From positions 1-35,630 of the forward strand of contig CADASF010000019.1 in NCBI GenBank assembly GCA_902790465.1: a DNA stretch of 35,630 bases. Direction: 5' to 3'. The notes beneath the pieces are model-generated. The model did no database searches. It saw only the letters and a list, made by a program, of their open reading frames with translations, and had not been told where the DNA came from. Positions 16,668-18,827 of this stretch are shown one piece after another. This stretch comes from an uncultured bacterium (GTDB taxonomy: Bacteria; Vulcanimicrobiota; CADAWZ01). The position numbers and the translations under genes are program-made. Each line of letters begins with the position of its first letter. The stretch's first letter is position 1.

Positions 16668-16812
16668 GGGACTGTGAAAAAAAAAAGTAAATAGAGGCGA
16701 TGTCATTGCGAGGTAGCTATGCGACCGTGGCAATCTCATGCACTTTTTTATTAGCTAACACAATGAGTTAATTTACGAAAATTATATAAAAAAATATTTT
16801 TTTCACAGCCCC
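16668..16812. mobile_element. Small non-autonomous element (MITE-like) with GGGRCTGTGAAAA termini
   Basis: About 145 bp bounded by inverted repeats GGGACTGTGAAAAAAA (16668-16683) and TTTTTTTCACAGCCCC (16797-16812), one mismatch in 16. It has no coding capacity. Its interior carries one REP-like unit. Its right end abuts the right 50-bp repeat, and an isolated copy of that end sits at 1044-1066. With the following repeat it makes up most of the gene-free stretch 16633-16976. Confidence 0.65.
16695..16735 (+). repeat. Single REP-like unit
   Basis: TCATTGCGAGG, a short middle and CGACCGTGGCAATCTC match the left unit at 615-703 with its insertion removed. The upstream flank AAATAGAGGCGATG resembles TTTAGAGGAGAAG at 603-615, so the repeat extends about 12 bp to the left. 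Confidence 0.65.
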
Positions 16813-16868: not shown

Positions 16869-16925
16869 ATAAAAATTGCTGTAATGATGGTAAAAGAGAT
16901 AGAAAGAGAGGAGATATATATATAA

Positions 16926-16967
16926 AAGGAGCATTGGGGCTCCTTAATTTTATAAAAAATTAAGGAG
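16926..16967 (+). promoter_or_regulatory. rtcB leader: two competing hairpins, one hiding the ribosome-binding site
   Basis: Three segments can pair in two exclusive ways. A = AAGGAGC (16926-16932), B = GCTCCTTAATTTT (16939-16951), C = AAAATTAAGGAG (16956-16967). A with B gives a 7-bp stem with a 6-base loop. B with C gives a perfect 12-bp stem with loop ATAA, and C contains the AAGGAG ribosome-binding site (16962-16967), nine bases before the rtcB ATG. B carries CTCCTT, the same sequence as the 16S rRNA anti-Shine-Dalgarno. There is no T-run, so it is not a terminator. Translational control is inferred from the pairing. Confidence 0.7.
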
Positions 16968-16976
16968 AAAAAATAT

Positions 16977-18125
16977 ATGAGAATTGAAGGAAAGTATAGT
17001 TCTGCAGAAGTTTTTACTGTAAATAATAAAGAAACAGCTATTGACCAGTATGCCATAGCACAATTACAGATGTTATGTGATAATCTTGTATCAAAAGATT
17101 CTGTAATAAAAGTAATGCCAGATGTTCATCCAGGAAAAGTATGTACTATTGGTTTGACTATGACTGTTGGAAATTCAATAATGCCACAAGTTGTGGGAAT
17201 AGATATAGGCTGTGGAATGACAATTTCACAGATCAGGACTAAAAAAATTGAATATCAAAAATTAGACACAGTCATAAGAGACAATGTCCCTTCAGGTTTT
17301 GCAGTGAGAAAAAAGCCACATTTAAAAGCAGATGATTTTGATTTATCTTCTTTAAAATGTATAAAACACATAAGAGAGGAAAACGCATTAAAAAGTCTTG
17401 GAACTCTTGGAGGGGGAAATCATTTCATAGAAGTAGGCAAAGATGAGGATTCCAATTTTTATGTAAATATACATTCTGGAAGCAGAAATCTTGGAAAAGA
17501 AGTTACAGAATATTATATGAAAGAAGGGCAGAAAATTTTAAAGGAACAAAATTTAGAAGTTCCGTATGAATTGACTTATCTTACAGATGAACTAAAGAAC
17601 GATTACATACATGATTTAAATATTGTTCAAGATTTTGCAAATTTAAATAGACAAATTATGATTGATGAACTTGTTAAAGGCATGAAATGGAAAGTTATCG
17701 ATCAGATAAATTGTATTCACAACTATATAGATTGTCGAAAAGAAACTGTTGATATATTATCTTCTCCTGTTCTCAGAAAGGGAGCTATTTCTGCATTGAA
17801 AGATGAAGATGTAATAATTCCAATAAATATGCGTGATGGTATAATTTTAGGAAAAGGTAAAGGCAATAAAAATTGGAATTGTTCAGCCCCTCATGGTTCA
17901 GGTAGAATTTTAAAAAGAGTTGATATAAAGGGAAAATATACTGTTTCTCATTATAAAACAGCTATGAAGGGAATTTATTCTCCAAGTATTAATTCAAATA
18001 CACTTGATGAAGCGCCATTTGCATATAGACCTATTGCTGAAATTCAAGATGCAATTTCTGAAACAGTTTCAATAGAGAAAGTAATTAAGCCAGTATATAA
18101 TTTTAAGGCTGGAGCAGAGGATTAA
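16977..18125 (+). CDS. rtcB: RtcB RNA ligase (short, PrfH-associated form)
   Basis: A 382-aa RtcB, the Mn2+/GTP-dependent ligase joining 2',3'-cyclic phosphate or 3'-phosphate RNA ends to 5'-OH ends. Visible active-site segments are MPDVHPGKVCTIGLT near residue 47, VGIDIGCGMT near 74-83 (metal Cys), LGTLGGGNHFIEV near 142, HSGSRNLG near 163, INCIHNYI near 244 (metal His) and SAPHGSGR near 306, whose His is the predicted guanylylation site. It is shorter than E. coli RtcB and is followed by prfH. This is the RtcB2-PrfH pairing, reported to religate 16S rRNA cut in the decoding centre. The start is ATG 16977 with AAGGAG inside a hairpin. No archease or RtcR is present. Confidence 0.94.
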   Translation: MRIEGKYSSAEVFTVNNKETAIDQYAIAQLQMLCDNLVSKDSVIKVMPDVHPGKVCTIGLTMTVGNSIMPQVVGIDIGCGMTISQIRTKKIEYQKLDTVIRDNVPSGFAVRKKPHLKADDFDLSSLKCIKHIREENALKSLGTLGGGNHFIEVGKDEDSNFYVNIHSGSRNLGKEVTEYYMKEGQKILKEQNLEVPYELTYLTDELKNDYIHDLNIVQDFANLNRQIMIDELVKGMKWKVIDQINCIHNYIDCRKETVDILSSPVLRKGAISALKDEDVIIPINMRDGIILGKGKGNKNWNCSAPHGSGRILKRVDIKGKYTVSHYKTAMKGIYSPSINSNTLDEAPFAYRPIAEIQDAISETVSIEKVIKPVYNFKAGAED

Positions 18126-18239: not shown

Positions 18240-18827
18240 ATGAAGATACAATTAAGTTCGGGTTTAGGACCTAAAGAATGTAGATTAGCAGTTGCAAAAC
18301 TATTTGATTCACTATCAAAAGAATATAAAGACATAAAATTTATATCAGGAAGAACTGATGGAAATGATTGTTATTCATCAGTAATTTTTGAAACTGACAA
18401 TGATCTTTCATCACTTGAAGGGACTATTGAATGGATTTGTAAAAGTCCATATAGACCACATCATAAGAGAAAAAATTGGTTTGTTGATGTAAGTGTAATC
18501 AGAGATGAAGAAACAATAGATGAATCAGGAGAGATAAAATTTGAGAGATTTCACTGTGGGGGAAATGGCGGACAAAATGTAAATAAAGTCGAGACAGGTG
18601 TTAGACTTATTCATATCCCTACAGGTATCACAGTAACATCGACAGAAGAGAGAAATCAATTACAGAATAGAAGAAAAGCACTTGATAAGTTAAATAAGAG
18701 ATTGGAAGAAATCAATTATAAAATAGAAAGTAAAAATAAAAATAATGCTTGGAGAGAACATACTAAAATTGTAAGAGGAAATCCAGTTAGGATTTATGAA
18801 GGTATGAACTTTGCAAGGAAAATGTAA
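18240..18827 (+). CDS. prfH: Peptide chain release factor homologue PrfH
   Basis: A 195-aa class I release factor homologue of the PrfH type. The GGQ loop that triggers peptidyl-tRNA hydrolysis is in [16 protein letters not shown] near residue 108, followed by the conserved [20 protein letters not shown] and NRRKALDKL. The stop-codon recognition (PxT/SPF) domain of RF1/RF2 is missing and replaced by a shorter N-terminal part ([35 protein letters not shown]), as known for PrfH. PrfH releases the nascent peptide from ribosomes whose 16S rRNA was cut at the decoding centre so that RtcB can reseal it. The pairing with rtcB here is the classical one. The start is ATG 18240; its ribosome-binding site (GGGGAG) is placed rather far, about 13 bases upstream. 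Confidence 0.94.

Follow-up and report, generated by a model that had tools for sequence, protein, structure and literature searches.

The gene for an rtcB-like RNA ligase in the window (the whole 35,630-nucleotide stretch analysed here) is preceded by a short leader with three arms, in which a middle arm (B) can pair with either of two Shine-Dalgarno copies (A and C). The preliminary description read these arms as a switch and speculated that it senses free anti-Shine-Dalgarno sequence to control rRNA repair. The locus raises the question of whether the leader belongs to the rtcB operon or to something more general. The motif is probably a single copy of a ~45-56-bp leader module that inserts at scattered sites in the genome of this rumen bacterium, a portable ribosome-binding leader that would set the translation of its host gene. 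The features of the locus are given in Table 1.

Table 1. Features of the rtcB leader and the genes that follow it.
Feature	Position	Strand	Basis or remark
Arm A, AAGGAGC	16926..16932	+	Read from the sequence; near-invariant among module copies
Arm B, GCTCCTTAATTTT	16939..16951	+	Pairs with A or C
Loop, ATAA	16952..16955		Between arms B and C
Arm C, AAAATTAAGGAG	16956..16967	+	Carries the Shine-Dalgarno serving rtcB; 9-nt spacing to ATG
Spacer, AAAAAATAT	16968..16976	+	Ahead of ATG; intact-start copies end in TAT here
Probable native Shine-Dalgarno of rtcB, GAGAGGAG	16906..16913	+	Start codon now 63 nt away; sequence and congener alignment
Inserted module	16924..16976	+	Empty congener rtcB leader, and filled/empty pairs elsewhere pointing to TAT/ATG; left boundary uncertain by several bases owing to a TATATATAT run
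rtcB-like RNA ligase gene	16977..18125	+	PF01139, E 1e-56; start ATG at 16977
prfH, peptide chain release factor H	18240..18827	+	TIGR03072, above cut-off; next gene after rtcB

The three-arm leader and the rtcB operon

The three arms are present at the positions first described. Arms A and B can form a 7-bp hairpin, predicted to be the structure that the nascent transcript adopts before C is made, or B and C can form a perfect 12-bp stem, which is the predicted MFE structure. The window contains this A-B-C arrangement a single time, and the 200 dinucleotide shuffles made from the window contain none. For 16900-17020 as a whole, the fold is only modestly better than in shuffles (z = -1.84). 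The view of one hidden ribosome-binding site with two alternative stems is also borne out, with predicted stabilities that are near equal; by prediction, the Shine-Dalgarno of C is hidden in one of two mutually exclusive hairpins, as in a translational attenuator. Opening C is predicted to cost 1.1 kcal/mol (1.0-1.5 kcal/mol across most contexts), and 5.3 kcal/mol when A is barred from pairing. No sensor part is visible in the module: it has no Rfam aptamer (Rfam 15 gave 0 matches at or above the gathering score in the window) and no ATG, GTG or TTG at Shine-Dalgarno distance after A. Leader peptide control was rejected on this missing start codon. The proposed mimicry of the 16S rRNA 3' end by arm B is nothing specific, since every arm complementary to GGAG contains CTCC.

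A switch specific to rtcB would work through free 16S 3' tails, or ribosomes stalled after decoding-centre cleavage, that displace or compete with arm B and so turn rRNA repair on. Colicin E3 cuts 16S rRNA in the decoding centre and the E. coli counterpart of rtcB-prfH protects against it (PMC9223846), and the position of the module before rtcB-prfH speaks for this explanation. The ordinary nature of arm B as a CTCC anti-Shine-Dalgarno arm speaks against it, as do the relatives. The rtcB of the congener (uncultured rumen bacterium RUG13696) has 95% protein identity and a plain leader, AGAAAGGGAAGTGATAAAAATG, without the module. The two leaders align as far as the old Shine-Dalgarno, which is matched by the stretch immediately ahead of the congener's start codon, with a local score of 37 that was reached by 0 of 1000 shuffles (shuffle maximum 36); the empty site in the congener is known from 94 nt of leader at the edge of a contig. 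Fifteen further rtcB leaders, taken from Lachnospiraceae and genomes like them, do not have the module either; a release-factor-like GGQ motif was detected immediately downstream in only some of these. RtcB has no match in two more distant family members. The preliminary description had named a lack of conserved alternating pairing in relatives as grounds for giving up the idea, and the pairing is indeed missing from the congener operon and from the 15 other leaders.

The native Shine-Dalgarno of rtcB in the congener has a predicted opening cost of ~1.1 kcal/mol. Since this is about the same as the cost in the window, the net effect of the module on rtcB may be small. The window's genome has two more RtcB paralogues with ~46-49% identity, L159/L162 (C60) and L161/L165 (C15). 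The paralogue on C60 has an ordinary leader without the module.

A 145-bp repeat at 16668-16812 lies between a MYG1-like gene and rtcB and has imperfect terminal inverted repeats, GGGACTGTGAAAAAA ... TTTTTTTCACAGCCCC. Stretches related to it number in the dozens in the congener, and at L142 and L147 the repeat also splits leader-module copies.

Module copies and insertion before start codons

A BLAST search with the leader against the window's own genome gave 25 matches. The pattern AGGAGC-N5-32-GCTCCT was found at 33 sites per strand compared with 1 for the control. The pattern GCTCCT-N5-32-AGGAG was found 139 times compared with 10 for the reversed pattern, and these many CTCC...GGAG palindromes correspond to the short, multi-copy palindromes with a conserved foot that mark REP/RAYT systems. 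A reading of part of the genome (searches and stretches covering 613 kb, plus local stretches) resulted in 28 module copies, and 4 were read in the sole congener, leaving out three more of its contigs; both genomes were assembled from metagenomes. A search of 56 further genomes of the phylum, outside the genus, did not find the exact 18-base A:B hairpin.

The copies share a constant left part, AGGAGCATT(T/G)AAGCTCC, followed by a variable stem and then GGAG-N5-6-TAT-ATG. Among the 18 copies with a start codon 4-13 nt after C, 15 have 9 nt between C and the ATG. The orientation is always sense relative to the host gene. Some copies are truncated or have no start codon, and tandem arrays at L004, L007, L136 and L146 would fit repeated insertion at one spot. 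Hairpins of the module kind are found in 6 of 219 ORFs started from a Shine-Dalgarno, and so are not the usual ribosome-binding site of this genome.

The genes downstream of the module are unrelated and include rtcB, malQ (PF02446), hsdS (PF01420), AAA-ATPase_like/PDDEXK_9 and Rpn-like tails, together with DUF6273-like genes (assigned by eye). Because the leader element is one of about thirty near-copies before start codons genome-wide, it is not a sensor dedicated to ribosome repair. The same module before genes of such different kinds, its absence from the rtcB leaders of relatives and its apparent insertion leave little of the proposed rtcB-specific control by free anti-Shine-Dalgarno, and a switch of that kind is extremely improbable. 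rRNA-repair sensing by the module was rejected on its distribution.

Insertion of the module is well supported by comparison of filled and empty sites, which differ by 45-56 bp immediately before the start codon. The cleanest pair is found in Rpn-like tails, where the empty site (L149:408) reads GGGGAGCATAT directly followed by ATGCAATATG and L148 has the same flanks plus 53 bp. Given in full, the empty site is GAGAGGGGAGCATAT joined to ATGCAATATGATTTACATTTAATGCAAATT, and the filled site adds the 53 bases TTAAGAGGAGCATTGAAGCCCCTTAATTTTGAAAAATTAAGGAGAAAACATAT with identical bases on either side. This insert runs TTAAGAGGAG...AAAACATAT; its ends are not inverted and no terminal inverted repeats of the MITE type are present. 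There is a TAT on both sides of the insert, which could belong to the element rather than to a target-site duplication. The second pair is in full-length Rpn genes, in which L132 and L116 encode EEERTMY directly followed by MQYGLK and L126 encodes EEERTMY-KERSIEAPSTKEKTY-MQYGLK, a 45-bp insertion in frame. Both Rpn insertions are exactly at TAT/ATG. In-frame insertion was observed in L126, and most module copies are at gene starts or are frame-shifting. The malQ site is filled in the window's genome and empty in the congener, and the two genes are 95% identical in DNA.

Known Rpn proteins start a separate small internal product, RpnS (PMC10327210). The TAT/ATG insertion site corresponds to this RpnS start, and we infer that the start is used here. 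The locus L149:1-895 has a full-length Rpn-like gene and then a second, different RpnS-like tail with a module before it, the module being open in frame.

Of the 24 non-tandem module sites, 13 have an SD-like sequence upstream, compared with 76 of 735 module-free TATATG sites (Fisher, p = 3e-7, an approximate value that overstates independence because the copies are related and partly tandem). This enrichment would be compatible with targeting and with selection alike.

Pairing, translation and alternative origins

Under the portable leader explanation, the module would insert in the sense direction between an existing Shine-Dalgarno and the start codon, at TAT/ATG in the cleanest cases. The insertion would part the old Shine-Dalgarno from its gene, and arm C would substitute for it. 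Arm A would compete with C for B, so that the RNA would alternate between a closed (B:C) and an open (A:B) state. Transcription would make A:B first and C would initially be open. Arm A would set the balance, since without it B:C would nearly close the site. The effect on rtcB, as on every host gene, would likely be a moderate, general setting of translation with no response to rRNA damage. The sequences show directly how many copies there are, where and in which orientation they lie, which sites are filled or empty and which arms are complementary; the module is inferred to be mobile at present, to affect translation and to open co-transcriptionally.

The stem extensions TAATTTT, TCAT, AAAAA, TAAAAT, TCTACGA and TCG are complementary between B and C despite their differing sequence. 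When compared by stem type, the mean complementarity is 9.4 bp with the own partner and 6.0 bp with a swapped partner. A swap of B and C over all copies is weakly informative, since stem types recur among copies, and the comparison at the level of types is clearer. Predicted stabilities in intact copies are about -9 kcal/mol for A:B and -8 to -12 kcal/mol for B:C. With arm A present, C is predicted to open at lower cost in most intact copies, much as in rtcB; L148, L149 (GCCCC for GCTCC) and L126 have no gain from A in the energy model. The single copy common to both species has kept A and B, and its C has drifted from AAGGAG to AAGCAGG. In this copy A:B is preserved better than B:C. The complementarity of B and C could instead reflect palindrome correction at the DNA level rather than RNA function.

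The main rival to a portable leader is a selfish palindromic repeat without a regulatory role (REP/MITE-like, perhaps moved by an IS200/IS605-type transposase), in which copies with a working Shine-Dalgarno before an ATG were kept as the least harmful. The truncated copies, the numerous other CTCC...GGAG palindromes (nested ones included) and an IS200-like TnpA gene in the congener, with fragments at contig ends in the window's genome, are consistent with such a repeat. The sense orientation and the mostly 9-nt spacing among intact-start copies argue against it, as does the near-constant arm A, which by prediction makes C easier to open in most copies. The module end also differs from the right end of this TnpA element (GAGCCATTCATGTGCTC...TGGCTC). 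A selfish repeat without a regulatory role is unlikely. On a comparison that covers one right end, that of the single IS200-like TnpA found, IS200/IS605 ends are an improbable parent of the module, as the congener element has a different right-end hairpin. The Y1_Tnp matches are IS200-like or degenerate.

The TnpA gene of the congener (L134:1-480, contig C6) is apparently complete. The window's genome has TnpA fragments at contig ends only, suggesting that a multi-copy element has collapsed there. CTCC...GGAG palindromes that have no arm A are numerous (L114:4059, L114:5076, L119, L148, L155 and others). They have a recurring context, CAAATTAGCTCC...GGAGAAAAAATACTGG, widely differing stems and no start codon after them. 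Nested palindromes (L121:9827, L123, L124, L023) have the hairpin AAGCTCCTTAATGAAATTAAGGAGAAAAAAAATG in the loop of CTCCTTCG...CGAAGGAG, as if inserted. Two further CTCC...GGAG palindromes (L019:1470-1632) are seemingly inside the coding sequence ...YNNFPWPFVFSPTNVGAESSLRKNSLLNFEKIKEK..., possibly of a methyltransferase (by eye).

A transcription attenuator, with A:B and the following TTAATTTT as an intrinsic terminator and B:C as the antiterminator, is very unlikely. The A:B hairpin does contain GC and has a weak U-run after it in the rtcB leader and in other TTAATTTT copies, and unrelated viral contigs carry an identical hairpin that has a long T-run and resembles a terminator. The U-run is absent in copies with TCAT, TCTACGA, AAAAA or TAAAAT stems, however, so the module does not conserve it, and transcription attenuation was rejected on this point. 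A phage origin was also rejected: the 18-base A:B hairpin is in 9 viral contigs and the C arm is in none of them, and several of these hairpins resemble plain terminators.

A stronger form of the portable leader explanation is possible, though doubtful. The module would then be a mobile element aimed at ribosome-binding sites, in the gap between Shine-Dalgarno and start codon, with internal starts (that of RpnS, for example) among its targets. It would bring a complete two-state leader of its own and rewire how each recipient gene is translated while leaving that gene intact. Promoters, terminators and protein-binding sites are already known as cargo of small repeats. A repeat that inserts at start codons with a switchable Shine-Dalgarno would, if true, be a route to spread translational control genome-wide, and a module at internal starts such as RpnS could shift a toxin-antitoxin ratio. 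Before a gene-specific role is proposed for a neat leader switch, other copies of it should be looked for.

Comparison with known systems

A limited literature search, with most subscription papers outside its scope, found no described equivalent of Shine-Dalgarno-carrying repeats. Translational attenuators and riboswitch expression platforms use Shine-Dalgarno, anti-Shine-Dalgarno and anti-anti-Shine-Dalgarno arms to expose or hide one Shine-Dalgarno. The module has the same three-arm architecture around one Shine-Dalgarno; unlike these systems, it has no aptamer and no leader peptide start at Shine-Dalgarno distance after A, and its downstream genes have no common function. Rickettsia palindromic elements are palindromic inserts in frame inside protein-coding genes. 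The module resembles them in a single case (L126), but this insert is at an internal start site and most copies are at gene starts.

Small RpnS-like genes are also found downstream of some rpn genes (PMC10327210). Similarly, several module copies are at the site that corresponds to the intragenic RpnS start, and L149 has a downstream RpnS-like tail; a hairpin module at the RpnS start is not mentioned in the consulted passages of the RpnL/RpnS description (PMC10327210). The IS605B stem-loops of Borrelia are at gene 3' ends and match the ends of their element (PMC2775950). The module is likewise a free-standing, gene-linked hairpin in a genome with an IS200/IS605-type transposase, but its sequence does not match the right end of the TnpA element identified.

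The pneumococcal BOX, RUP and SPRITE are small interspersed repeats, with SPRITE at 3' ends and terminator-like (PMC3049150). Like them, the module is short, AT-rich and hairpin-forming, has tens of copies per genome and is nearly absent from relatives. Unlike them, it has no terminal inverted repeats that could be seen, sits at start codons and carries a Shine-Dalgarno at a fixed distance from the ATG.
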